A DNA stretch of 64,000 nucleotides from Aurantiochytrium sp. KH105 (taxonomy: Eukaryota > Sar > Bigyra > Thraustochytrida > Thraustochytriidae): assembly GCA_003116975.1 (NCBI GenBank), contig BGKB01000010.1, positions 124,001 through 188,000 on the forward strand, given 5' to 3'. The notes beneath the pieces are model-generated. The model ran no database searches and was not told the origin of the DNA. It saw only the letters and a program-made list of their open reading frames with translations. Numbering within the stretch: the first letter of the stretch is position 1; every line of letters begins with the position of its first letter. Of the stretch, positions 2,341 through 17,964 are shown one piece after another. The position numbers and the translations under genes were made by a program.

Positions 2341-3078
2341 CTGTCACCGTTTTACGAAATTAGATGTTGAAGGAGTGGCGAAGACGACGTTGCAAAGCAA
2401 CACGATTGGAAAGAAGCACGTCGAGAGTGCCATGTTACGTACTCGGGAGGTTAGTTTCTTGCAAGTTGTTTCCTTTTAACTTTTAATTGCGCCTGCACGC
2501 CGTGAGTGCCTTGCGGACAAATTCGGCCTTAATTTTTTCTTTCCTTAGCCTATTTCCTCTTCGCTTTGCCCCCTTCATCTTGGTCTCGCGGTCGCAGAAC
2601 CAGCGGAGCACACGCAACGGACCATCCGCGAGGCCAGTGAGCCCCCACGCGTCACAAGTTGCGCGCGACTCCCTGCGCCTCGCGGGCCGCCGGGTCACCT
2701 GGCCTCAAGAAAGAGCATCACCACACATCGCAGGCAGCGTCCTGGTCCTCCCTCCTCCGTGGGCCGTCCGACTTCTGCCCTCTGCCTTGTGCCTTCGCTC
2801 GCGCGAAACGTACCAGGCCCGAGGCGCCCGCGCCCACGATGCAGGTGCGCATCATCCTCGTCTCGACGGCCAAGCCTGGCCTGATGGGGCTCGCTGTTTG
2901 GTCGCTGCTCGTCGCACCCGACTCGATGCTGGATGCTGAGAAGTTTATGCTGGGTTGTCGCAGTCAGTGCACACCTGATCTCGGGGACCCGGTGTGCACC
3001 AGAATCCCACGGCCCGGGGACCCCTGGGTCCGGGCGGGTGGGTGGTGGGCGCAAAGCGCGATTCTGGACGCGGCGAGG
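2341..3078. other. Divergent intergenic region between monooxygenase and URB1
   Basis: This head-to-head region should hold both promoters and the missing first exon of the monooxygenase. On the minus strand, ATG at 2433 opens a 29-codon hydrophobic, signal-peptide-like frame (MALSTCFFPIVLLCNVV) that ends at TGA 2346-2344, in phase with the monooxygenase. On the plus strand the URB1 frame is open from 2659, but its first codon is TTG, and the first ATG (2839) gives a proline- and tryptophan-rich lead without family character. I see no clear core promoter element. Confidence 0.5.
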
Positions 3079-6000
3079 ATGGCAGGCGAGCGCGCGACAG
3101 CGGGCAAAGACGCTGGCGCGCGAACGTCTGCGGACACGAAGATGCAGACGTCCGCGTCGTCCGGAGCGAACAAGAGCGTACCCGAGGTGAACGGCCCGCT
3201 CGAGGCGCAGGACTTCGTGGCCGCGCTCAACGCTGACGAGACGCACGTCGTCTGCGATGGTCTGGTCCGCTTTGTACAGGCAACGCGAGGCGTACAACCG
3301 GAGCAGGAGAATAGTGCAGTCAATGAGTATCTGAAGTTGTCTCCAGAGTGCAGCGAGATTTTCTCGTGGTGGGATGCCGTGCGAACAGGGCAAATGACGG
3401 TGGAAAAGGGCTCCGAAGGCAGCGTCATGGCCGCCATCTTCGACGCGTTTGCTGTCATCTTGTTCCTCGCGCATCCTGTCAAAACTACGACCTCGCAGAT
3501 CCAGGTCACCCGCAAGCTTCTTTCGCGGACTCGTTTCTTCAACAAATTCCTCGAGTCCACACGCGATCAAAAGCTGCTGCGCAACCTTCTCAAGCTTCTC
3601 GTTGCAATGGTCACGAAAGGAGCTGGGGTCGCTCGTGAGCTCTTTGGCAAACTCCCATTTTCCAGCCCGAACATGCTGCGTCTCGCTGACAAGGGCGATG
3701 TTGGAACTGGCAAGAATCGCACCAAGGGAGGCACCACTCGGTTTGGATCAACGCGTCACCGCTTCCTACAACTCACGCTCGCACTGCTAGAACACGGTGA
3801 CGTCACAACCAAGAAGCGAGTCATCGAACCCAAGGGCGTGGCACTGGCAGCCCTCCGTCGCATCGACGAGGACCCTACGGACATGGTGACTTTTTTCCTG
3901 ACTGGACTTAAGACCTTTGTTTTGCAGGACACCGCGATCGGGAGAAAGGCAAAGATCACATTTTTCGGACAGCCGCTCGTCCTTGAGTCCATGCTGCTCC
4001 CCTTGTACGACTCACCTCACAAGATGGTGCGAGACTGTGTGCACGACTTTCTCTTTGCTGCTGTAGTGCGTCCAGAGTCGAGCGTCTTTCCCGCTCTTTC
4101 GGACATTGCCAACGCAGACTCCCTCAAAGCGGAAAATGCTGCTTTCAACAAGCGAATCGAATCACAGCTTGCGCGACGAAACAGAATCATCGCTTCGATG
4201 GCTCGCTCGCTCAACCCCGTCAATGACCCGAAACAGCGTGAGCTTCTCTTGGCCATTCTCGAGCTCGATGACTCCCTTATGGAGGCCTTCTTTGCCACGA
4301 GCTGGAACAAAATCAATCTCGAGCCCCGGCCGTCCATTGTATGGGTACGAAATATGGTCTTTGTGCGCAAGTTGCTCAATTTTCCTCCGCCCAAGACGCA
4401 AAGCCTAGAGACCTTTCGAAATGTAACCGGCCAGACGAGTGGTGATGACGTCTCAGGCGAGACAAACATGCCTACGCTTAATAGCCCGGCGACATCCAAG
4501 CTCGATGCTCTCGCCAATACGGTGCTAGCATGTGCGCTTCCGAGCGCAACTGCTGTTTCACGCGCGATGCTGAGCAAGGGAATTCAACACAGCAGCAGTC
4601 TTGTTGTCGTTCACACACTCGATCTTCTTTCGCATTTGCTACAGCGTATCGTACTCGTCATGGAGGAGTCGCTTCGGAGAGATCAAGGAGGTGCGCCGCC
4701 GGACAGCGTTCCCCTGAGGGATACTGTTGGCCGCAAGCTCGTCCATCGCATCCCAGATGCGAGCGTTTTGATCACGCTCGTAATGACCGCAAGTCAGAAG
4801 CATAAATCATGGCAAGCCGAGGAAGCGGAGTGGGTCCTCTTCAAGGTGGCACGCGTTATGCACTGGTATGGGTCCCTCCTACCCGAAACACTCCATGGCA
4901 AGCTTTCCGTCGAAAAATTCTTGCCCCTGTACGACGCGCCGCCTTCGAGTGTATCTCTGGCGGCGCACATCTCGTTTGCGCGCATGTTTGACGCCGTGGG
5001 TGCAGCGAACCTTGCATGGCAGAGGGCCGAGGCCTTCTTGCGTGTTTGCCAACTTCGTTGCTTCTGCGCGCAAGACGTCAACACGATTGACGCGATCATT
5101 GAAAACATTTTCGTCTCGCTCGTGGCGACGTCCTCGTACGTGGCAGGGCGAAGGTCGAGCGAAAGGATTCACGCTAGGGCATGGGCCAAAGCAGCACATT
5201 CACTTGAAGACGCTACCTTTGTGGCTCGGACAATCACCGAAGCGGTGACGTCCAAGCCTTTTCCAAGCTGCGACGAAATTCTCCTTCTCGGTCTCGAAGA
5301 AGCTCGGCGCAGCGAATCAGCAACAGGTAGCAAGGTGTCTCGTGACGTCATGCACCGGGTCGTGGTTGAGCTCGTTCATACACTTTCAGATTTATCACAG
5401 CTCGTTCCCGTTCTCGTCGAGGCAAAACTAACCGACATGATTCCTGCAGGGGACTCCATTCTCAAGTATATTCAGCATGTGCTGGGTGTCCCTGTTCCTG
5501 GGGCTAAAAAGCTGAGCTCAAGTTCTGCGGCAGGGACCTTTGTACGTGAAGTCCTGGCTGTTGACGTCACTCCAAAGCGCTCTGCACTAGCATTTCGTAC
5601 GAACTTTGGCATCGCTTTGCAGAGCGCGTTCGAGAGCACGGACTATCAGCGGTCTGCCCTAATCCCACCCGAGCGTGTCCCCAACGCTCGTACGACGTTG
5701 CTTGACGCAGTCGATGAGGTGCCATCTGAGGATGTTAATGAGATCGCGCTTTTCGTTTCACGCGCGATTGGGGCCTTTCTTAATGCCGCCCAGGAGCCCC
5801 GGTCCTTGGATGCAGGACCTGCGCTTGAGTTATGCATGGAAATTTTAATCGCATGCGTGGACAAAGATCCCGAGTGTATTGTCGAAAGTTTGAGTGGACA
5901 TTCGGCTTTGCGCGAACTCGAGGTGGTTCCCCAAGCGGTGCAGGTTCGTTTGAGTCAGCTGTTTGATGCAGCTCGCGATTCGACGAAACTCTACGCGGCG

Positions 6001-9000
6001 TCCATTGGCGTTTTCACATCCTGGGTTGCTCTTTTTGAGAACAGCCCCAATGAAGACGTCGCCTACTGCCTGCTCCTCAGTCGCCACTGCCTGACGCAGA
6101 CGCGGCTTCAAGACGCTGCAATCAGCCTCCTCGACCGCATCTCCGCGGCGCATCTGGAATCCGAAAAGGGAAAACCACTATCGCGTGCTCTCGTTCTCTA
6201 CGCACTCTCACATGGCCCAGCGGATGCCCAAACCCTCCTCCGCCTCCTCCAAATGGCCGACCGTCAGCCAGGTCCAGACGTTGACGATGCGCTTGTGGGC
6301 TGCTGCGAAAAGCTTGTGCGCGAGCATTCGTTGACGACGCGCGCGAGCTTTGTAGGCGCGGCATTGCAGGATCCCACAAGCGCAGTGTGTGCTGCGGCCT
6401 CGGTGCTTTGGACTCAGCCCTCCTTGAAGCGGGTCCATGCGCTCTCGCTTTTGTCTGGCTGGACCTCACTCGCTGAGACAGCCCTCGCATACTTGTCTCG
6501 CGAAGGCGCCGACATTGCGCTTTTTTGGGAATTCTTGGCTCACTGTCCTCGTCGCGTCTGTGTTCAGCACTGCTCCTCGGATCTCTCGAAGCGAATTCGC
6601 ACGCAAACGATTCGTGGTGCTCCTTTGCCGCAACAAGCGTTTATCGCCGAAGCGAAACTAAATTTCGCACGAAAGGGAAAACAAAGCGATATCGAGAAGC
6701 TTGTGGAGGCTGCCCTCGACAGCACTGCAAGTGATCACGAGAAGGGGCTCGCTTTGGAATTGCTCGTCGGAGAAGGGAAGAAGGAAGCTGAAGAGATTGC
6801 TACTCAGCATGCTGGCCAAGCCCCAGACGCAGACGATGGCGGAGACAGTGCATCGGCCTTTCGCGAGGCGCTCTACGATAAATACGCGGGGCGTCTTGCA
6901 AGCGATTTACTGCAGGGCGCGCTGGACGCAGCGTCGGATGCTGCTCGCTTCAAGGACCTTCAAATGCTCGAGCGTCTCGTTGACATTGCAAACGGTCAAG
7001 CGCAGGGTCGCGTTCCTACGAGCGTTGTATCGCGCGCAATTCAGCGTGGGGCATCCGATGACAGAATAATGAAGGCCGTGCTTGGACTTCTCGAGTCTGG
7101 TCTTGCTTTTGCCGCCGAAGCGCACGTGGATGCTGTCTTGGCTTTCAAGGGGCTTCATGGTAATGAAGCGCTCGAGCGCATCTGGCTCAGCCTGGCGCAG
7201 CGACTCCCTGCTTCGGCATGCCCACATGGGCGCTTCGAGGGCCTGCTGGCGTCTTATAAGGGTACAATGGGCGCAGGAGACTGCGTGCGGCGATGCCTCA
7301 TTCAGATCTTTGAGGAGCAACGATCGGGTTCGCTTGACACCTTTGCGTACTGCATTGGCGAGAGGGCATCGCTGGACGCAGAGACAATTAATGTTCCCTG
7401 CGAGAACTCCACTGAGGCAACAGATCCAGTCGTTTTACGAACGCTTTTGACATCCCTCTTTGACTGGATCTTCACGGACCTCGATTTCCAGGGCAGTCTT
7501 TCAACTTCCTTCCCCATCTTCCGCAGCATGAGTCCACAGAGCCCACAGCCTTATTGTCTTTCTGCGTGGCGAATTTCGGACCTTGTCGACATGCACAATG
7601 AGGTCAATAAGCGTGTGCACGTGCCACAATCCACCAAGAAGAGGGCAAGACCACAATTGCAGCATGGAAAACCATCCTCCAGTAAGCGTGCCAAGCAACT
7701 CGATGCATCGTACGAGGAGCTCGGCTCCGACGGACCGGGGAGTGACAGCGACAGTGGCCATAGTAGCGACAGCGACAGCGAGTCTGGAGAGGAAGAGGAG
7801 GAGGAGGTTGTTGCCGAAGACATGGCGAGCGGCGATGAGATGGATTCGCATGCGGAGGCAGGCTCTTCTTTTGAAGATGGAATCGCCAAAGATCTTCATC
7901 AAGAGATTGAGGCTTTGGCTAAAAATGAGACGCATTCGGAAGCTGTCGACCCGAGCTTTGCGCTGCGAGTGCTTGACCGCTTCTTTACACTTCACGCTGT
8001 GCTTGCCGATTTGCCTGCCACATCTGCTGATGAAGATGATAGCGACGAAGACACGATGGATGTCGATGAGAACGCTGGTGAAGTTCAGAGGCGTCGCGAG
8101 ACCTTGGCGGTTGCCTTCCCTTCACGACGACTTATCGACAGCGGAGTCGCTGCGTTCTGTATCTGGGCTCTGAGTTCGTTTTGTGAAGACGTGCGCAAGA
8201 TAGCAGCCCGGTGTTTGCAGCGCTTTGGTCAGCTGCTGATGCGGGATCCCTTGTTCAAGGACAAAAAGCAGTTTCTTCTCGTGCTGCGATATTTGCGAAA
8301 CGCGCTCGAGACCGGTGTCTCGACGCGTGTGTCTGGAATCCATTGCAGCTTTATCTCTCACGCTCTTGACATCGTTGGCAAGCCTTCTCACAGCATGTAC
8401 GAACTCGTGTATCGCTTCCTTCTTCGCGCCCCTGCGATGGATCTTTCCTCTGTGCCATTGTTTTACCACACGTTCTCGAGCGGGACACCAAACTACCGCG
8501 TTGAGCGGAGCTGGATGGTCCGTGTCATGGAGCAAGGCATCCGATCTCGCTTTGACGTGGGCGTGCTGGTGAATCGCCACGTACCGAGCATCTTCATGTC
8601 CTTTGTGAGCTCGCCCATAGGCGACGTATACATGCACAAGCATGTGTTGGAGGTGCTCGTTAAGACTGCACGATCAGGACCACATGGTGCCCGCGAACTT
8701 GTGCGAGCTGGTGTGATCGGTTGGGCGACCCAAGTGTTGGCGCAGAGCCTTGAGCGAGACGATCTCGCGGCATCTGCTCTCGTCGACCTCATCGAACTGT
8801 TGTGGCACGCCGCAAAGGCCGCGGCTCTGCCCTCGAATGCTGGTCATCCAGGCAAGGGCTCCGACCAGGGGTCAGATGGGGTGGTCGCGGAGGGCGTCTG
8901 CGAGGCAATAGATATTGAGGCGGTATGTGCGGCATCTTGGCTAGTTGAGGAATTTCCGCGACTGTTGGTTTCCTTGGGGGAATACCAACCTCGCGCGCTT

Positions 9001-9540
9001 CGTTTCGCAGTCGACGCGCTCGTCCTGTGGAGCGGCATCGCGGGTGGATTGCATGCGATCGCAAGCGATCACAGAATTCTTTCGGTCTACTGCAAGCAGG
9101 AAGGCTCGCTTGAGATTGCCTGGACCGACATGGCAAGCTTTCTCATATCTTGCGAAAATCTGATTGGCCAGGAGCCGGATCTGGTTATAGGACTGTTTGC
9201 CATTGTGCTCCGCAACCGCAGCACGATTGTCTCGAAGAAAGAACGTGCTGCTCGACTCGATGTGGTTATGCGATGGTTGCTTGATCGCCTACTGCAATAT
9301 GAGCCGCAGGCGACGCCACACGAGCGTCTTCTCTCATCATGCTGCGCTGAGGCGTTCTGCGCCTGGGTCCGAGCGCACGATCTTGCGGCGGGAAGCGGCG
9401 ATGCTCTTAAAGCTCGTTTGCACTCTCTGATAATGGCGGACTACTTTGACGAGTCATCGGAAAGTACTGCGATTGTGCGGCAGCTTTCACGATCCTACAT
9501 GCTGGATGCTCGCAAATCTCTGCTCGGCGCACTTTTGTAG
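3079..9540 (+). CDS. URB1: URB1/NPA1-like nucleolar pre-ribosome assembly protein
   Basis: URB1 (Npa1) is a very large helical-repeat nucleolar protein needed early in 60S ribosomal subunit assembly, where it works with snoRNP-associated factors on pre-rRNA. This 2153-residue protein has the expected length and plan. An N-terminal conserved block lies at residues about 255-335 (MVTFFLTGLKTFVLQD, ITFFGQPLVLESMLLPLYD). A long helical middle follows, then an acidic serine-rich patch near 1550-1580 (SDSDSGHSSDSDSESGEEEE). The C-terminal URB1 block at about 1790-1880 includes VPLFYHTFSSG, RVERSWMVRVMEQGIRS and SPIGDVYMHKHVLEVLV. I chose the ATG at 3079 (MAGERATAGK, purine at -3 and G at +4); ATG 2839 in the same frame would add 80 residues. 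No intron is evident. It is head-to-head with the monooxygenase. Confidence 0.78.
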   Translation: MAGERATAGKDAGARTSADTKMQTSASSGANKSVPEVNGPLEAQDFVAALNADETHVVCDGLVRFVQATRGVQPEQENSAVNEYLKLSPECSEIFSWWDAVRTGQMTVEKGSEGSVMAAIFDAFAVILFLAHPVKTTTSQIQVTRKLLSRTRFFNKFLESTRDQKLLRNLLKLLVAMVTKGAGVARELFGKLPFSSPNMLRLADKGDVGTGKNRTKGGTTRFGSTRHRFLQLTLALLEHGDVTTKKRVIEPKGVALAALRRIDEDPTDMVTFFLTGLKTFVLQDTAIGRKAKITFFGQPLVLESMLLPLYDSPHKMVRDCVHDFLFAAVVRPESSVFPALSDIANADSLKAENAAFNKRIESQLARRNRIIASMARSLNPVNDPKQRELLLAILELDDSLMEAFFATSWNKINLEPRPSIVWVRNMVFVRKLLNFPPPKTQSLETFRNVTGQTSGDDVSGETNMPTLNSPATSKLDALANTVLACALPSATAVSRAMLSKGIQHSSSLVVVHTLDLLSHLLQRIVLVMEESLRRDQGGAPPDSVPLRDTVGRKLVHRIPDASVLITLVMTASQKHKSWQAEEAEWVLFKVARVMHWYGSLLPETLHGKLSVEKFLPLYDAPPSSVSLAAHISFARMFDAVGAANLAWQRAEAFLRVCQLRCFCAQDVNTIDAIIENIFVSLVATSSYVAGRRSSERIHARAWAKAAHSLEDATFVARTITEAVTSKPFPSCDEILLLGLEEARRSESATGSKVSRDVMHRVVVELVHTLSDLSQLVPVLVEAKLTDMIPAGDSILKYIQHVLGVPVPGAKKLSSSSAAGTFVREVLAVDVTPKRSALAFRTNFGIALQSAFESTDYQRSALIPPERVPNARTTLLDAVDEVPSEDVNEIALFVSRAIGAFLNAAQEPRSLDAGPALELCMEILIACVDKDPECIVESLSGHSALRELEVVPQAVQVRLSQLFDAARDSTKLYAASIGVFTSWVALFENSPNEDVAYCLLLSRHCLTQTRLQDAAISLLDRISAAHLESEKGKPLSRALVLYALSHGPADAQTLLRLLQMADRQPGPDVDDALVGCCEKLVREHSLTTRASFVGAALQDPTSAVCAAASVLWTQPSLKRVHALSLLSGWTSLAETALAYLSREGADIALFWEFLAHCPRRVCVQHCSSDLSKRIRTQTIRGAPLPQQAFIAEAKLNFARKGKQSDIEKLVEAALDSTASDHEKGLALELLVGEGKKEAEEIATQHAGQAPDADDGGDSASAFREALYDKYAGRLASDLLQGALDAASDAARFKDLQMLERLVDIANGQAQGRVPTSVVSRAIQRGASDDRIMKAVLGLLESGLAFAAEAHVDAVLAFKGLHGNEALERIWLSLAQRLPASACPHGRFEGLLASYKGTMGAGDCVRRCLIQIFEEQRSGSLDTFAYCIGERASLDAETINVPCENSTEATDPVVLRTLLTSLFDWIFTDLDFQGSLSTSFPIFRSMSPQSPQPYCLSAWRISDLVDMHNEVNKRVHVPQSTKKRARPQLQHGKPSSSKRAKQLDASYEELGSDGPGSDSDSGHSSDSDSESGEEEEEEVVAEDMASGDEMDSHAEAGSSFEDGIAKDLHQEIEALAKNETHSEAVDPSFALRVLDRFFTLHAVLADLPATSADEDDSDEDTMDVDENAGEVQRRRETLAVAFPSRRLIDSGVAAFCIWALSSFCEDVRKIAARCLQRFGQLLMRDPLFKDKKQFLLVLRYLRNALETGVSTRVSGIHCSFISHALDIVGKPSHSMYELVYRFLLRAPAMDLSSVPLFYHTFSSGTPNYRVERSWMVRVMEQGIRSRFDVGVLVNRHVPSIFMSFVSSPIGDVYMHKHVLEVLVKTARSGPHGARELVRAGVIGWATQVLAQSLERDDLAASALVDLIELLWHAAKAAALPSNAGHPGKGSDQGSDGVVAEGVCEAIDIEAVCAASWLVEEFPRLLVSLGEYQPRALRFAVDALVLWSGIAGGLHAIASDHRILSVYCKQEGSLEIAWTDMASFLISCENLIGQEPDLVIGLFAIVLRNRSTIVSKKERAARLDVVMRWLLDRLLQYEPQATPHERLLSSCCAEAFCAWVRAHDLAAGSGDALKARLHSLIMADYFDESSESTAIVRQLSRSYMLDARKSLLGALL

Positions 9541-10242: not shown

Positions 10243-13200
10243 TCAGCTGAATGAGCGCGTGAACGAGGTCGACTCATCAGGCTTTGGACGAAGCTCACTT
10301 TCGCCGTGCGCGAAAAAGCATTGATCTCCCTTGAAACAGTCGGTACCATTCGAGGATTCCCAATTTCGGCACAATTTCGTCTTGTAGTTCGGATCTGCCT
10401 TGGGATCCCCCGTGTATTTTGGCTTCCTTGGGTGATGCGACTGGGTTGCCGCGTGGGGACCGCGCCAGTTATCGCGCGGGGCACGCGCTGACGAGGCGAA
10501 GCCCGAGCCCCGAGGCGGGGACGACGAGAGTGGCGACGGTGACGGGGACCGCGATCGTCCTCGTGCTGCCGATCCAGGTCCGCTTTGCGAATTTCGTCGA
10601 GGTCGTGTCCCTGGCGCCGAGCTCAGACTCCCACCACCCCCTCCGTTGCTCATGCCACCATTGCTGTTGAAAAGGTGTGGAGGCGCAATGATGGGGTCAT
10701 TGATGCCAGGGAATCGTGGTGGCGGCGACCATGGCTGCTGCTTGCGTGACTGCGGCGACCCTGTCACAGAAGATGATGATGTCATCGATGGCGAATCCCT
10801 CGATGAAGTCTCAAAGCCAGGTGGCGGCCCACGAGATCCAGAACGATGACGACTCGTTGCTGTCGCCGGATCAGAGGATGTCGAAGAAAAGTCTTCAAAA
10901 CCCGGCGGCGGCTCGACAATTACCGGGGGAAGAATGTCCTCTTGCGCCACGGTGCTTGACAGGTGACCATTTGAATTGTCCGGGTCCGACGAACCGTCAT
11001 TCTTGATCGAAGAATACCTCGCAGGTCTCGAACTAGATGCAATAGACGCTGTCTGTTGTGCAGCTGCAGACTGCTTCTGTTTGTTTTTTCCATGTTTCGG
11101 TGGTTTTCCTGACGAAGAAGTACCGCCGCTTGCGCTCTGGCTGTCTCCTTGCTGCTCGCCCAACGAATCCATGACACACTGCGGTCGAAGACGGAAAGGA
11201 CGTTCGCCCTCGGTTCCTTCAGCCACGCTTGTCAATGTGTCCATTCCATTCGACGGCGAGAAGGTGCCAAATTTCTCAGAACCCGCGGGCGCCTCCTTGG
11301 CACGCTTGGCGCATGCAGCAGCATCAGGGCCGTACTTGGCAACGGTGGACGGGCCAAGAATCTCAGCAAATTCGGGCTCGTGAGCGCAAAACTCGAGAAT
11401 GAAACGGTGGCACGACATGAGGAGTTTGGGGAAGCGATTCGAGCCAATGAATTCGTCTAGAAATCGATCCGGAAGAGGGGACAACAAGTCTCGAACCTCT
11501 GGCGTCGACTCACGGATATGAGAATACTTGTTACGCATGTAGCGCAATAAGTCCCGCAGTGAATGCGTCGTGTAGTAGCGCCGTTTGCTGTCGACAACGT
11601 CGTTGCGCAGACTCGGATGCAGGCGCTGAAGCCAGCCCTGCGAGCCAAAAACTTCGCGTGCATATTCCTCAAAGCGCTCGTGGAGGGTGGACTCAGGTAC
11701 GGAGAAGGGTCGTGGATCGCTACCGCTCGCCCGATCCTCTACGACGCGGTCAAGCTCGAGACGATCGCTCACGTGTTTCAAAAACTCGAGCTTGCGCGAG
11801 GCTGGCCACAGAAGCGGGTGCTCCATGCACTCCTCAATACTCGGGCGCAATTGCGCATCGTGGCGAATCATCTGACCGATCAAGTCCTGTGCCTCGGGAT
11901 AGTTCTTGATTCGCCCCAGATTTACCGGTGCGTCATCCATGATGTTCTTTTCCCGTTCAATGGCATCACCAAAAGGGTGGAATCCATTGCTCACCACGTA
12001 AAAGAAGACGCACCCCATGGAGAAAACGTCGACCTTGCGTCCGCAACGGATCGCCACGTCGCGCTCGAGCTCGGCGTCGCCTTTGCTCCGAAGAGACGAA
12101 AGAAGTTCGGGCGCACGCCAGCCTACTGTACCTGAGCCATGCATACTCGTGCCACCATATATGGAGCTCGTTGTACCTGAAAATTTGCGACCGAGACCCA
12201 TGTCTGAGAGCTTGGGCTCAAAGAACTCTCCAAGACCAGCAAGGTACGAGCTTCCACCGACACTGCGCGACCCTTGTGACTCTGCCTCGACCAAGGTATT
12301 CGAGCTCGCAGGGACCGATGATACCGAGACGGCCATGGCGCCGGTGACGAGGCTTGTGGGGCTCGATGCCGGCCCAGAAGGCCCAGGGGCGCCGCTGCTG
12401 ATCGCCGAAGGGTCCCACGACCCCTCGGCCACTTCTGCCTTGGCTGCGTCCACCTTCTTGGTTTCAATGACGAGAATATTTTGCGGCTTAATGTCGCAAT
12501 GAACGATGCATAGCGAATGCAGGTGTTTTGTTGCATCGGCAAGACTATGCAAAAAGGCAATCGTGGTGTCTGGCAATCGGACATTTTTCTTTGCGCTCTT
12601 GGGCACAAGTTCCCGACGACTTCGATTCAGATCGCGGATACTCTCCACGGCCTTTTCCAGCGTAAAGTCGCATAATTCGAGTGCAAGGTAAATAAATTCC
12701 CGCGTCTCCTCTTGCGTAAAGTAGCGCACGACGTTTGAGTGACCGTCTGAGCGAATGAGAAGGTCGATCTCCTTCTTTGCCAGCTGAAATTGGCTCGCCA
12801 CCACCTTTTTCACTGCAACAGGACGATCACGAAGCCGCCCTTTGAGAACCGTGGTGCCATGGCAGCCGCGACCAAGAACTGAGTCGAGCTGCACGGTGAG
12901 CTGACCCACACGCTCTGTCTCGGTAGCGGGGTCATACTGGACCTCGAGCTCTTGGGCCGACCCGCGTTTGTGACGCCGGATCAGATTCAGCCTGCTCGCC
13001 AAAAGAACAAGAACCAAAACTAAAAGAGCGCCAATGACGGTCTGCAGCGTCCGCTCTCGTCCCGCGTCCATAGGTGCAGGTGGATAGCCCGGGGAATCAA
13101 AGTGCGTATGCCTTGGGGTCTCCGAAGGGGTCGCTCCGTGGTTCGTTGTGCCAGCCCCAGGACTCGGCAGACCGCGCGAAGTAGGAGGAGCGCCAAGGCC

Positions 13201-14619
13201 TGGCCAACGAGGCGGCGAGGACGATTTAGTGACGCGGCCAGAATCTACTGGGGCGTCAGTAATGTCGTCTGCGTCGCCATAAATCAGGTGCTGGTCAGTC
13301 ACATGATATGGGCCCTGCAACGGAAAGTCCTCGTCGACGACCGTGCACTGTTCTTGGTCCATGGCAACGTCGGCCACGCCAGCATCACTTGAGCGATAGC
13401 CAATGTCCTCAGGGAAAACAGCATTGCTGCAGCGGATATCTCGTCCCGGGCGACTTGTTGTGGCGTACACCTGCACGTGGCCGCTCTTGTATTTAATACG
13501 TTGCAGATAAATGGGCTTGGCCTTGGGCAGATTTCCAATGACCGCCTGGCCTTCGTTTCCGATCGAGACCTCGGACAAAAACCGCCAGCTCTTCTTGGAC
13601 GACTGCGCCCGACTCACGCCAAATACCGCCGTTACAGGAACGCCTTCCCAGGTCGCGCGTTGCGACATGGCCGTGTCGATCTCAAGATTTCGCGGACTCA
13701 GACGAGGAACGTCGCGGTCGCGCGAGAGAAACTGGCCATATGTGAAATTCCAAACTTCCAGTCCCGACACCGCATTATACGCACGCACGTGATAGTCAAC
13801 GCGGCCGATCGTGAGAGGCGAGGCATCTGGAAAGTGCACATCTTTGTTGCTGAGCTCGGGTGGCTGAGAGTCACCAACAATTTCCCATCGCCCGTTCAAA
13901 AGTGATCCAGTATCTGAGGTAAAGACACGGAGGCGCCGACCTGTATTGGGATCAATCTCATAGTATGACGTTTTCCGCTGGCCGACCACGCGAATTTCAC
14001 CTTCTTCGCCTCCGAGTGTATCAGTGAGCGGGCAGCTATTGACAAGATCTGGGATAGAAAGAGGATGCAACGAAAGGTCATCCTCCTCTTCAGAAAAAAT
14101 GTAGAGTTGGCCGTCATCTCCAGGGACGACGCCACCCTTGAAAGAGGGTGCCTGGAAAGATTTGATGGTGGGTCCCCCGACTTCATCCGTCGTCCAGAGT
14201 TTCTCTCCATCCTCCACACGGACACCGTGCACTTCTCCATCTACGGTGCCGACAATCATAACTTCTGGCGTCTCTGCAACGCCGTAGTGAATTACCGGTG
14301 TATTGTCGGTATTCTCCCCGGACGCACTTTCGCCCGCGCTCCGACTTGTGGCAGATGCAGTCCCTACAGCGCCAGGTTTGATTTGTACATCGACCATAAG
14401 GTCGTCGGCACCATTGTCAACGTCAATGCCATCGTCTAAAGTGATACCGTCATCCAAAACGAGGTCACCATTCTCGTCACTCGAGACTTTGGCTGCGGTC
14501 GATGCCGATGCGCTGACAGCGCCTCTCCCTCGTCGAGGTCTTGCACCTGCTGAAGTCTGCTCCGATCCCACCAACAAAACCAGCACAAGCCAGAAGCTAA
14601 GCAGTCTGCTGGTGAGCAT
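10243..14619 (-). CDS. IRE1: IRE1-type ER stress sensor kinase/RNase with C-terminal CCCH zinc finger
   Basis: IRE1 senses unfolded proteins in the ER lumen and cleaves RNA on the cytosolic side. This 1458-residue protein starts with a signal peptide (MLTSRLLSFWLVLVLLVG). A luminal beta-propeller-like region follows (VMIVGTVDGEVHGV, KLWTTD), then one membrane span near 524-543 (LLVLVLVLLASRLNL). The kinase begins near 575: LGRGCHGTTVLKG, VAVKK, catalytic loop HCDIKPQNIL near 702, and DMG instead of DFG near 808 after an ~80-residue Ser/Ala-rich insert. The KEN RNase domain (about 940-1075) keeps LRDLLRYMRNKYSHIRE, with the Arg-Asn and His of the active site. A disordered tail of ~340 residues follows. 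The end (about 1415-1450) is a TIS11/tristetraprolin-like finger, YKTKLCRNW...CFFAHGESELR, spacing C-x10-C-x5-C-x3-H. No stop or frameshift separates the parts. The longest frame starts at GTG 14649; I chose ATG 14619. The gene is head-to-head with the Tectonic-like gene. Confidence 0.9.
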   Translation of the reverse strand: MLTSRLLSFWLVLVLLVGSEQTSAGARPRRGRGAVSASASTAAKVSSDENGDLVLDDGITLDDGIDVDNGADDLMVDVQIKPGAVGTASATSRSAGESASGENTDNTPVIHYGVAETPEVMIVGTVDGEVHGVRVEDGEKLWTTDEVGGPTIKSFQAPSFKGGVVPGDDGQLYIFSEEEDDLSLHPLSIPDLVNSCPLTDTLGGEEGEIRVVGQRKTSYYEIDPNTGRRLRVFTSDTGSLLNGRWEIVGDSQPPELSNKDVHFPDASPLTIGRVDYHVRAYNAVSGLEVWNFTYGQFLSRDRDVPRLSPRNLEIDTAMSQRATWEGVPVTAVFGVSRAQSSKKSWRFLSEVSIGNEGQAVIGNLPKAKPIYLQRIKYKSGHVQVYATTSRPGRDIRCSNAVFPEDIGYRSSDAGVADVAMDQEQCTVVDEDFPLQGPYHVTDQHLIYGDADDITDAPVDSGRVTKSSSPPRWPGLGAPPTSRGLPSPGAGTTNHGATPSETPRHTHFDSPGYPPAPMDAGRERTLQTVIGALLVLVLVLLASRLNLIRRHKRGSAQELEVQYDPATETERVGQLTVQLDSVLGRGCHGTTVLKGRLRDRPVAVKKVVASQFQLAKKEIDLLIRSDGHSNVVRYFTQEETREFIYLALELCDFTLEKAVESIRDLNRSRRELVPKSAKKNVRLPDTTIAFLHSLADATKHLHSLCIVHCDIKPQNILVIETKKVDAAKAEVAEGSWDPSAISSGAPGPSGPASSPTSLVTGAMAVSVSSVPASSNTLVEAESQGSRSVGGSSYLAGLGEFFEPKLSDMGLGRKFSGTTSSIYGGTSMHGSGTVGWRAPELLSSLRSKGDAELERDVAIRCGRKVDVFSMGCVFFYVVSNGFHPFGDAIEREKNIMDDAPVNLGRIKNYPEAQDLIGQMIRHDAQLRPSIEECMEHPLLWPASRKLEFLKHVSDRLELDRVVEDRASGSDPRPFSVPESTLHERFEEYAREVFGSQGWLQRLHPSLRNDVVDSKRRYYTTHSLRDLLRYMRNKYSHIRESTPEVRDLLSPLPDRFLDEFIGSNRFPKLLMSCHRFILEFCAHEPEFAEILGPSTVAKYGPDAAACAKRAKEAPAGSEKFGTFSPSNGMDTLTSVAEGTEGERPFRLRPQCVMDSLGEQQGDSQSASGGTSSSGKPPKHGKNKQKQSAAAQQTASIASSSRPARYSSIKNDGSSDPDNSNGHLSSTVAQEDILPPVIVEPPPGFEDFSSTSSDPATATSRHRSGSRGPPPGFETSSRDSPSMTSSSSVTGSPQSRKQQPWSPPPRFPGINDPIIAPPHLFNSNGGMSNGGGGGSLSSAPGTRPRRNSQSGPGSAARGRSRSPSPSPLSSSPPRGSGFASSARAPRDNWRGPHAATQSHHPRKPKYTGDPKADPNYKTKLCRNWESSNGTDCFKGDQCFFAHGESELRPKPDESTSFTRSFS

Positions 14620-15669
14620 GGGACCCGCAAAGGGTACCACCAGGCTCACACTACAACGCTCAACCTACTCCACTTGATCTTATTCTCGTAGCGTTTGAGC
14701 GAGCAAGTCAGCTCGCAGAATATTGCCCACGAACAAGCAGGCTTGCGCGTTGCTCCCAGACCGCGCTCGGTTTAGTCGGCGCGCCGCAACGCCCTTGAGC
14801 GTTCGAAAAGGTCTGTCGCCCCTTCCGTGCGCCGGTACGCGCCGCCTCGTTCTCCGCGCTGTGCTTTCGCCGGCTCCGTCGCCAGACGTTGGCGCGACTC
14901 CCGTCGCTATCGCAGAAGCCCACGACTTCCGTCCTCGCTCCTCCTCGCTGTCGCGGTCGCGGTCGCGGTCGGCGTCGGAGTCGGAGTTGTCGTCGTCCTC
15001 GACCACGTAGTCCAGATGGATTGATCGAGCGTGCCTCCCGAAGAACCGCTCCCTTCAGCAACACGCGGCGGCGCGAGGGCGTTCCCGCGCGGGCGTCGAC
15101 GTCTCGGGGCGCGGCGCGGCGCGGCGCAGCGCAGCTCGCGCGAGCCCGCCGCAGCCTTGGGGCTCGGACGGGGTCGCGTCGCGATTTTGCACGCAGATCG
15201 CCGCCGCCCGCTTTGCGTCCTCTGCGGTCCTAAAATTACCCCGCGGCGCCTATCGCCCCTATCGCGCTTAGCGCGCAGCGGCGTTCCCCCGAGTTCCCCC
15301 GCGGCCCTGGATTCAGGGCCGCAGAGCCCCGGTTCCGGGGCCGGGCGCGGCGCGCACGGCGCACGGGGGCGGCGGCAGAGGGCCGTTGGGCCACTTGATG
15401 GGCCGGTTTTTGCGGCGCGCGTGGTGATGGGGAATGGACGCTGCCGGCGGAGATGGCGGCGGTCGCCCGGGGCGAAAGTGGGACGCGGTGGCGCGGCAGC
15501 AGAGCTGGCTTGACTGCCTGGCTCGCGGCGAGCGTGCGCTGGGCGGCCGGAAGCGACTCCCTCCTTTGGAAGTGGAGCGACGTGCGTTGCCAGTCTCGGT
15601 CTCGGTCTCTTGGTCTAGGTCTTGCTTGGTCTAGGGCTAGGTCTCTGCGCTCGGCGAAGCAAGGAGAAA
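14620..15669. other. GC-rich divergent promoter region (IRE1 / Tectonic-like)
   Basis: About 1 kb of very GC-rich DNA lies between two genes transcribed away from each other. It includes GGCGC-rich short repeats near 15110-15130 and GTCGCGGTCGCGGTCG-type repeats near 14960-14980. Frames on both strands are Arg/Ser/Pro-rich and lack good ATG starts, so I read them as composition artefacts. The region presumably carries both promoters and 5' leaders. Confidence 0.6.
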
Positions 15670-17964
15670 ATGCAACCCGGGTCGGGCGTGCGCGCTGCGC
15701 GCAGAGAATACTGGGCTAGCGTCATGAGGGCAGCAGCCGTGGTGGTGGTGCTCGCGAGCGCTGCACCGGGAGGAGAGGCGATGACCTTTGCGTACGGGAA
15801 CGCATATGAGATGCTGACGCCCGGAACCGGCAACCAAGGTGTCGACGTGACGTGGGCTTCTGTGCCGCTCTTGTCAGAAGCGTCAACCGGGTACGTCCCG
15901 CTTCCAACGGGTTGCGAATGCCTTGACCTTGCGCAGACTGCCGAGACATGCACAGCGTTCACGTGTCACGAAACGTGCAATCTCAATATTGGCGAGTGTG
16001 ACGAATTTTGTTGCAGCGACCCGGACTGCACCGCCGATGATCTCGAACGATTCAACGCGCTGGGCGAATGTTTGCCCGATGGTAGCTCTACGGACAGCAA
16101 ATTATGCGTTGACACAACTTCGTTGGATCAGGTAAATGAAAAATACAACATGTATGTGGAACAGGATGACAACGCATTAGAAGGCCTCGTGTGTGTAAGT
16201 GTGGAGAACAACGCCATCGAGGGGGAGTTCTATTCGTCGCAAGCGGATCTTGTGAATAATTATGCCGTGTTGGACTCGGAAACGTATCAGCCATCCTATT
16301 CTTTCGCAATTAGCGTCGACTCTGACGCAGAGACGGGCAGCCAAGAGTACCTCTTTGGTGACAATCTCGTGGCTGCGATCCAGACAGACTCGTTTCGAGC
16401 TGCTTGGGGCGGCGTGCTAAGCTTGCCTACTGCGGGCGTCGACGGCACGTGCTCACCGCAAAACTTTGTGGAATTCGGCACGGATGTTCAAGTGAACGAG
16501 TGCCTTCTGCCCGTCGAGAACCTGGAAGCAACATGTACTCAGACACATGGTCCATTGTCTACAGCACTCTACGGGGAAGACCTTTACATTGGCACGAGAC
16601 CTTCTTCCGCCATCAACACCCCTTCGACCGATTGGGAAAGAGTCACGGTGCGAAGCTTGCTTTACAAGTCGCTGGAAACGGGAAGCGTATCAAGCTGGGA
16701 GAGCGGCAGTACCTTAAGCCCAACTGCTCAACCCACGTCAGAGCCCACAGCACTCTCAACTGCGTCTCCTACGGAATCTTCATCAGGCGCAAATTCTACG
16801 GTGAGCGCCAGTCCCACCGTCACTCCTTCTGCTTCGCCAACGGATGCGCCGAGCGCGAGACGTGCCTTGCAGGTCTCCAGCGTGCCGTCCACGACTTGGG
16901 ATGCAAGCAGCGGCACATGCGAAAACGCGGTTGTGGGCGTCAAATATGTGATTGAGCACAACGCCTTGGGCGTAATCACCAACGTTCAGGTAGACTTGAC
17001 ATTGTCAAACGTGGACTTGTCCAGTGCAGCGCAGACAGCTCAGCAGGGTCTGACACAAAGTTTTCATGTCTCCTTTGTCAATACAGAGTCTGTAGCGGAC
17101 AGTACTGCTCCAGAGCGCGTTGTGTCTGGCAACCCTGGCTACATTGTAGGGCTTCCGGTACAAGCAGGAAACCTTGTGCGCCAAAATGCTGGAACAGACG
17201 ATGAAAAGACGGCTGTCTCGTATCTGCCCGAGGGTCTGGCCTTGATGGCAGCAAGCGGCCCGCGGGGTGCCTGCTTCCCTTCCTCATCTTCGCCGTGGTA
17301 CAATTTTGTTTCCAGCACAGAGATGACGGCGAGTACGCCTGTATTATTTGGCGTCGATGCCTCGTCAGCTTGCTCTGTGACACTGACCTATGAAGAGTTC
17401 ACCGACTTGTCTTCATGGTGCATCGACCGGCGCAATGCTCCGCTCCTTGATTTGGGAGCCACCCGAGTAGGCATATACGGTAACGCCAACCCATGGAAGG
17501 CTTGGGAGTGGGTTTCATTGCATCGCGAAACCTCGCACTTGTCATCAACAGCGCAGTCGCCAGTGCCAGGTCAACTCGTTTGCCAGAACATGGTGGACCG
17601 CGTGGATCTTGAGGTGTTGTGGACCAAGTCGGGCGAGATCGACAATCCGCAGCCCATGATCTTAAGTGTTCGTGCCATGGTTGGTCAGTCAGACTGGCAG
17701 TGGCGCAAGACTGGCGCGAGTGCAAATACAACGCAGACATTTACATTCTCGCAGACCGTTACCTTTATCGAGCACAAGCTTACTGAGGCAGACTGGTTTG
17801 CGTACAAGCCTGAGATCCCGCCCATTATTCCGGCAATCCCCGCGGATGTATTTTATCCTTTTGACATTGCCTCAGCTGCCCAGGCGACGATTCACGGCCA
17901 GAAATCGGGTGGACACTTCGTCACTGCATTTCTCGTGTGTCTCGCAGGTCTTTTGCGGGCGTAG
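15670..17964 (+). CDS. Tectonic-like ciliary transition-zone protein
   Basis: Tectonics are secreted or membrane-anchored glycoproteins of the ciliary transition zone (MKS/B9 module) that help gate entry into the cilium. The 764-residue product has a hydrophobic N-terminal segment (RAAAVVVVLASAAPGG, just after a second in-frame ATG at 15724). It then has the Cys-rich Tectonic signature near residues 75-125 (CNLNIGECDEFCCSDPDC). Further family-like features are VLFGVDASSACSVTL and a late SVRAMVGQSDWQWRK. A Ser/Thr/Pro-rich linker near 347-397 (SPTAQPTSEPTALSTASPT type) divides the two halves. The C-terminus is hydrophobic (FVTAFLVCLAGLLRA) and could be a membrane or GPI anchor. The longest frame begins at TTG 15622; ATG 15670 (AAAATGC) is the first ATG. 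Its presence implies a flagellated life stage. I cannot tell which Tectonic paralogue it matches best. Confidence 0.75.
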   Translation: MQPGSGVRAARREYWASVMRAAAVVVVLASAAPGGEAMTFAYGNAYEMLTPGTGNQGVDVTWASVPLLSEASTGYVPLPTGCECLDLAQTAETCTAFTCHETCNLNIGECDEFCCSDPDCTADDLERFNALGECLPDGSSTDSKLCVDTTSLDQVNEKYNMYVEQDDNALEGLVCVSVENNAIEGEFYSSQADLVNNYAVLDSETYQPSYSFAISVDSDAETGSQEYLFGDNLVAAIQTDSFRAAWGGVLSLPTAGVDGTCSPQNFVEFGTDVQVNECLLPVENLEATCTQTHGPLSTALYGEDLYIGTRPSSAINTPSTDWERVTVRSLLYKSLETGSVSSWESGSTLSPTAQPTSEPTALSTASPTESSSGANSTVSASPTVTPSASPTDAPSARRALQVSSVPSTTWDASSGTCENAVVGVKYVIEHNALGVITNVQVDLTLSNVDLSSAAQTAQQGLTQSFHVSFVNTESVADSTAPERVVSGNPGYIVGLPVQAGNLVRQNAGTDDEKTAVSYLPEGLALMAASGPRGACFPSSSSPWYNFVSSTEMTASTPVLFGVDASSACSVTLTYEEFTDLSSWCIDRRNAPLLDLGATRVGIYGNANPWKAWEWVSLHRETSHLSSTAQSPVPGQLVCQNMVDRVDLEVLWTKSGEIDNPQPMILSVRAMVGQSDWQWRKTGASANTTQTFTFSQTVTFIEHKLTEADWFAYKPEIPPIIPAIPADVFYPFDIASAAQATIHGQKSGGHFVTAFLVCLAGLLRA

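Follow-up and report, generated by a model that had tools for sequence, protein, structure and literature searches.

An open thraustochytrid IRE1 frame ending in a TTP-type CCCH finger: a candidate ER-stress RNase with its own RNA-holding arm

The window analyzed here is the whole 64,000-nucleotide stretch of Aurantiochytrium sp. KH105 (contig BGKB01000010.1, positions 124,001 to 188,000, forward strand), in which one long reverse-strand frame encodes an IRE1 protein that ends in a CCCH zinc finger. The features considered below are as follows, with positions counted along the window:

10243..14619, (-): IRE1-CCCH open reading frame of 1458 amino acids, no intron required, from the ATG at 14619 to the stop at 10243
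14545..14619, (-): hydrophobic N-terminus read as a putative signal peptide, residues 1-25 (hydropathy only)
13240..14544, (-): luminal domain region, residues 26-460 (phmmer, IRE1 luminal domain 2hz6)
12992..13222, (-): counterpart of the first intron in the deposited Hondaea model (GT-AG, 231 nt); excision would delete the span; open in the window
12973..13056, (-): putative single membrane span, within residues 522-549 (hydropathy only)
11800..12891, (-): protein kinase domain, about residues 577-940, with a low-complexity insert at 728-800 (Pfam and IRE1 match)
11362..11793, (-): KEN RNase domain, residues 943-1086 (Ribonuc_2-5A, E 2.7e-23)
10611..11254, (-): counterpart of the second intron in that model (GT-AG, 644 nt); excision would shift the frame and remove the finger; open in the window
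10894..10911, (-): PPPGFE motif 1, GYF-domain ligand type (motif scan)
10810..10827, (-): PPPGFE motif 2, GYF-domain ligand type (motif scan)
10285..10386, (-): CCCH finger YKTKLC-x10-C-x5-C-x3-H, TTP finger-1 type, residues 1412-1445 (80-residue piece search and alignments)

A gene for a Tectonic-domain protein adjoins IRE1 (15622-17964, + strand), and one for an Npa1/NopRA1 (URB1-like) ribosome-biogenesis protein (2659-9540, + strand) is convergent with it.

The whole 1458-codon frame is uninterrupted, and the same intact frame, free of indels, is found in the second haplotype (contig C7), the gene being present as two haplotype-like copies in the 76-Mb assembly. IRE1 is the only KEN gene of this assembly (two matches, one per haplotype). 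The two alleles differ at 32 residues. As the KEN domain shows 0 replacement and 9 silent codons between alleles, compared with 16 replacement and 9 silent codons in the tail, the KEN domain is held and the tail loosely constrained. The finger stretch shows 1 replacement and 2 silent codons, counts that are too small to stand alone, and its sole replacement (N1411H) lies just N-terminal of the finger core. Searching a plasmid collection gave no match. We also observed, on another contig (L022:3179-3299, G000:C79), a 121-bp copy, 98% identical, of IRE1 luminal coding DNA (window about 13585-13705).

The original prediction had read the frame as a single polypeptide with signal peptide, luminal sensor, membrane span, kinase, KEN RNase and one finger, and this reading stands: we found a luminal domain, a kinase before the KEN domain and a KEN domain with the catalytic Y/R/N/H, as looked for in an IRE1, together with a signal peptide and a span as judged by hydropathy. 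The luminal part (residues about 118-235) matches 2hz6 with an E of 1.8e-6 (phmmer), the next matches being IRE1 6shc, IRE2 and PERK chains. The kinase lies directly N-terminal of the KEN domain, both score above the Pfam cut-offs, and the pair matches IRE1 2rio with an E of 1.2e-70. The catalytic residues Y1016, R1029, N1030 and H1034, which we take to be yeast Y1043, R1056, N1057 and H1061, are kept and are invariant in 35 of 35 aligned sequences. In the kinase, HCD replaces HRD and DMG replaces DFG.

An 80-residue piece containing the finger matches 9y10 (a 'C3H1-type' protein, E 1.2e-10), TIS11d (1rgo, entered as butyrate response factor 2; 3e-8) and TTP (1m9o; 1.6e-7), which confirms the predicted TIS11-like finger in the same polypeptide as a true IRE1. 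The Pfam CCCH models place the window's finger under their cut-offs (zf-CCCH, E 0.4). When six finger-bearing relatives were compared with PF00642, P0004, P0006 and P0007 passed and P0003 and P0005 were below the cut-off, and for P0009 no match to any Pfam CCCH model was found. Across seven representatives, there are eight invariant residues in the finger as compared with zero in the preceding tail.

Three protein searches yielded 85 homologues besides the query. These searches drew their words from finger-containing regions and scored only the roughly 8000 candidates with the most shared words. No finger-less stramenopile IRE1 was found in searches biased in this way; such proteins, those of oomycetes above all, could be missed, because the search words came partly from the finger. 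P0002 (a near copy with a cut gene model), P0012 and P0077 were dropped before the tree, leaving 83 rows; P0012 and P0077 have other architectures (leucine-rich and ankyrin repeats), and none of the three has a CCCH match. A complete TTP-type finger stands at the end of 54 of the 83 rows, the window included, and a 55th row, P0084 (Symbiodinium sp. KB8), holds the first half of the finger, after which the gene model runs on. The search of related IRE1s for a C-terminal CCCH domain, which the original prediction had proposed as a check, thus revealed the finger in 54 other homologues (53 complete, one cut in the gene model). A further seven of the 83 rows carry, at their end, one or two fingers of another CCCH class, the only named one being the green alga Astrephomene (P0070), and 21 have no finger (plants, animals, fungi, Galdieria, Pelomyxa, a Closterium and others).

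The TTP-type rows comprise the window's clade (6), an ochrophyte-type group (41) and a third group (8). In the window's clade, the finger is found in 6 of 6 IRE1s (P0001 and P0003-P0007, the cut P0002 left out). The 'ochrophyte' label is based on the four members that carry a name, Chrysoparadoxa, Epithemia, Amphora and 'Staur' (probably Staurosira), and the third group is unplaced, its one named member being the Symbiodinium sp. KB8 record. This record (P0084) is identical to P0083 over the aligned kinase and KEN domains, and it may be a contaminant. Open reading frames from transcript assemblies of relatives (P0004 and P0025) span both KEN and finger; these, the other relatives and the two haplotypes rule out the finger as a separate gene or an artefact. 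Since the finger is present in related IRE1s, the two doubts raised with the original prediction, that it might be absent from all relatives or belong to another gene, do not hold. Every IRE1 in the clade of the window (6 of 6) has the HCD motif, that of a non-RD kinase, compared with 0 of 79 proteins outside it (P0002 aside); by kinase motif, the 55 TTP-type rows divide into 47 RD, 6 CD, 1 ND and 1 without a reading. Given the non-RD HCD, the kinase may be activated without need of loop phosphorylation.

In a quick tree of the kinase and KEN domains (438 columns, finger excluded, root not inferred, with flags on five long terminal branches and on nine rows of unusual composition), the TTP-type rows lie on one side of a branch with an SH-aLRT of 81, and the corresponding value for the green rows is 92, neither being starred. 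Two changes suffice for the three finger states on this tree. A single origin of all CCCH-bearing IRE1s, with both groups as one clade, was rejected (p-AU 0.005), as was a grouping of the window's clade with the green-algal rows (p-AU 0.002), and the window's IRE1 has neither the finger class nor the branch position of the green-algal proteins. As the common clade is rejected and the finger classes differ, two acquisitions are the simplest reading, such that IRE1 probably gained CCCH fingers twice.

When compared with the two fingers of the tandem TTP-like protein encoded in this genome (L017, G000:C25), all 54 complete fingers score closer to the first; the 809-residue part of that protein that was read holds no PPG-Phi motifs. 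TTP/TIS11 (ZFP36) has tandem C-x8-C-x5-C-x3-H fingers about 18 residues apart, and each finger of TIS11d has two RNA-stacking aromatics. The window's protein has the TTP-type finger sequence in a single C-x10-C-x5-C-x3-H finger rather than in a tandem, and 39 of the 54 fingers have C-x10-C-x7. The first stacking aromatic of TIS11d is Y170. At the second position, 53 of the 54 fingers have F and the remaining one has Y, selection having been on C, C, C and H only. At the first, R is the commonest residue among the 13 fingers with an x5 loop (7), followed by K and M (2 each) and by F and H (1 each); within the window's clade, it is K in P0001 and, from P0003 to P0007, M, F, M, H and K; the 41 remaining fingers have a longer loop, where this position is without sure placement. 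The two stacking aromatics of TTP/TIS11 are thus reduced to one in the window's finger, which has K at the first position and keeps the second. RNA binding by the finger is likely, judging from these residues. As the first TIS11d stacking aromatic is replaced in 12 of 13 placeable fingers, the specificity of the finger may differ from that of TIS11d, and an AU-rich preference should not be assumed.

A disordered tail of some 340 residues had been predicted between KEN and finger; the tail is indeed of low complexity, although its length is about 325 residues. Of 86 proteins, 6 carry PPGF[ED], and these coincide exactly with the window's clade, the window's protein and P0004 having two copies each; no other finger-bearing IRE1 among the 86 has it. 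The motif arises in a given shuffled tail with a probability of 0.00005 to 0.0018. Genome-wide, PPPGFE is encoded at 9 sites and the reversed pattern at 4, which is only a small excess; the two IRE1 motifs, in two haplotypes, account for four of the PPPGFE sites, and the rest lie in unrelated genes, presumably E2-enzyme-like, BUD31-like and repeat-protein genes, as named by our reading of their sequences. According to the accessible parts of PMC12249416 and PMC9476947, Smy2-type GYF domains recognize PPG-Phi and TTP binds GIGYF2 through such motifs, the accessible part of PMC12249416 giving the PPG-Phi preference and the GYF signature GPF-x4-M-x2-W-x3-GYF. GYF domains have 17 matches in the genome across both haplotypes, and one of the proteins, L009, is large, Q/E-rich and carries the full signature, from which we read it as GIGYF-like. 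Its upstream part may resemble a 4EHP-binding motif. By sequence, the PPG-Phi motif of the IRE1 is thus accompanied by a candidate Smy2-type GYF partner in the same genome. As tethered-mRNA decay rates were unchanged upon mutation of the TTP tetraproline motifs (PMC9476947, accessible part), GYF recruitment may serve translation only.

The sequence preceding the finger differs among groups. In the ochrophyte-type rows, and in P0007 too, the finger lies within a conserved block with GW-x6-W about 30-45 residues upstream; by a looser pattern, GW-x6-W is found in 43 of 54, including the doubtful P0005. In the third group, all 5 scored rows show W-aromatic ... W about 70-80 residues upstream of the finger, a count that excludes P0080, P0083 and P0084. 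A Trp motif common to all tails was ruled out, as GW-x6-W is absent in the window's protein. Because it also occurs in P0007, which the tree places as sister to the thraustochytrid rows, GW-x6-W is probably ancestral and was probably then lost in the window's lineage. The C-terminal 90 residues of P0013-P0051, P0009, P0085 and P0007 form a conserved block, mostly with W-x-GS, GW-x6-W and the finger, and this block may be a larger, undescribed domain.

We propose, with a probability of about 0.55, that the single IRE1 of this thraustochytrid is an ER-stress-activated RNase with its own RNA-holding finger arm and with GIGYF-type recruitment by PPPGF. The model builds on what is directly seen, that is, the domain order, the intact RNase residues, the type and conservation of the finger, the conservation of the motifs and the presence of a GIGYF-like protein. 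Stress would be sensed by the luminal domain, upon which IRE1 would cluster in the membrane, the kinase and KEN domains would pair and the KEN active site would form. The finger, on its long flexible tail, would hold RNA near this site, such that held messages with a suitable, probably U-rich, element would be cut more readily. As one finger would bind weakly and TTP uses two, clustering could act as an affinity switch, setting two fingers side by side and giving tight binding only under stress. Through its PPPGF motifs, the tail would recruit a GIGYF-type repressor to the message so held. A broader and doubtful version would make stramenopile IRE1 a membrane-anchored, stress-switched TTP, in which each protomer contributes half a tandem finger, clustering completes an AU/U-rich reader beside two KEN sites and, in thraustochytrids, PPPGF brings the GIGYF-type repressor, with CCCH readers gained independently in stramenopiles and green algae. 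If true, sequence-guided ER-stress decay evolved at least twice.

As the main alternative, the finger could instead dock a single bZIP mRNA, the HAC1/XBP1 equivalent, on clustered IRE1 for splicing, with no general decay reader involved. Such a role would agree with the splicing of bZIP1 mRNA by Chlamydomonas IRE1 (PMC11062448, accessible part), with the presence of CCCH fingers in green-algal IRE1s and with the very basic and strongly conserved ochrophyte-type fingers, as expected for a fixed RNA partner. However, a sense-strand pair of CNGCNGN-loop hairpins was found in 0 of 38 bZIP locus entries (20 of the 30 matches to PF00170 and all 18 to PF07716, the two sets overlapping), under a strict rule (CNGCNGN loop, stem of 4 or more, pair within 400 nt, both strands) that would overlook a diverged target. 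A HAC1-type target was rejected for the loci read. On the antisense strand only, a hairpin pair is present in one locus and its repeat entry. Also, RtcB ligase was not found in this genome, the control being matched in 9 of 14 genomes; for two Trl1-type ligase families, neither the genome nor the control gave a match. The hairpin and RtcB negatives are weak arguments that favor decay over splicing, and we consider the docking role unlikely. We would give little weight, too, to a finger that serves as a protein-protein or localisation module (for the ribosome, the translocon or IRE1 itself) with no direct choice of RNA, although there is only one finger, one RNA-stacking aromatic is mostly lost where placeable, and the ochrophyte-type finger belongs to the larger block with GW-x6-W, which could be a protein-binding unit. 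The closest relatives of the finger are the RNA-binding fingers of TTP/TIS11, and the second aromatic is kept in 54 of 54; moreover, another CCCH class occupies the same end of green-algal IRE1, which suggests a shared pressure for a CCCH function.

The deposited model of Hondaea fermentalgiana (P0002) raises the question of whether the finger is translated at all. Over their common parts, P0002 shares 98-99% identity with the C7 allele and 97-98% with that of the window, which places the source of the window in or near Hondaea. P0002 has no membrane span, finger or hydrophobic N-terminus. Its GT-AG sites exist in the window, and removal of both stretches from the window's DNA gives nearly the P0002 C-terminus, which stops before the finger. 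Were the actual mRNA spliced in this manner, the IRE1 would be without span and finger and the open frame would be incidental. Against this, P0002 also lacks the span and the hydrophobic N-terminus, both haplotypes keep the frame open, and span, tail and finger are encoded in relatives, including the transcript-assembly frame P0004. The spliced form, whose two introns remove span and finger and are not required for the frame, was rejected, and we regard it as highly improbable. Public gene models may hide fingered IRE1s, Hondaea being an example.

An IRE1 with its own finger of RNA-binding type bears on how IRE1 picks mRNAs for decay, for which fingered IRE1s offer a natural experiment. The finger is retained across a group to which diatoms belong, green algae having a counterpart of a different class, and such sensors may carry their own device for selecting the messages to be destroyed. 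IRE1, TTP-type recognition and GIGYF-type repression would here be joined in one chain. A C-terminal tandem zinc finger in Chlamydomonas IRE1 was reportedly described by Yamaoka et al. in 2018. The original claim that no IRE1 of such a layout had been described is too strong, as green-algal IRE1s carry a C-terminal CCCH and the accessible part of a 2013 survey (PMC3710099) lists KEN fused to kinase along with ankyrin repeats, and CCCH in some. In the accessible part of PMC11062448, a commentary on Chlamydomonas IRE1, no mention of zinc was found, and PMC12898128 is unrelated in its accessible part. Among the titles and abstracts listed in our literature search, with most subscription journals outside its coverage, none reported the stramenopile IRE1 finger, its TTP finger-1 type or the GYF motifs. 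CCCH on KEN proteins being already known, these three are what we consider new, and the comparative case is strong.

Compared with canonical IRE1 (yeast Ire1, human ERN1), the window's protein has the same luminal sensor, span, kinase, KEN domain and catalytic residues and adds the long tail, the CCCH finger, the PPPGF motifs and the HCD/DMG kinase motifs. RNase L is similar in its kinase-like and KEN domains, and has an ankyrin sensor, is soluble and is not known to carry a CCCH finger. TTP/TIS11 shares with the window's protein the finger-1-like CCCH with its YKTxLC lead-in and FAHGxxELR end, as well as the proline-glycine-hydrophobic GYF ligand motifs, whereas the window's IRE1 has one finger, x10 spacing and an attached membrane RNase, with the first stacking aromatic mostly replaced. 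Green-algal IRE1 (Astrephomene P0070) likewise has CCCH finger(s) after KEN but differs in finger class (FYxKTGxCKFGxxCxFxHP, which we label 'ZFN-like'), in having one or two fingers and in occupying a separate branch of the IRE1 tree.
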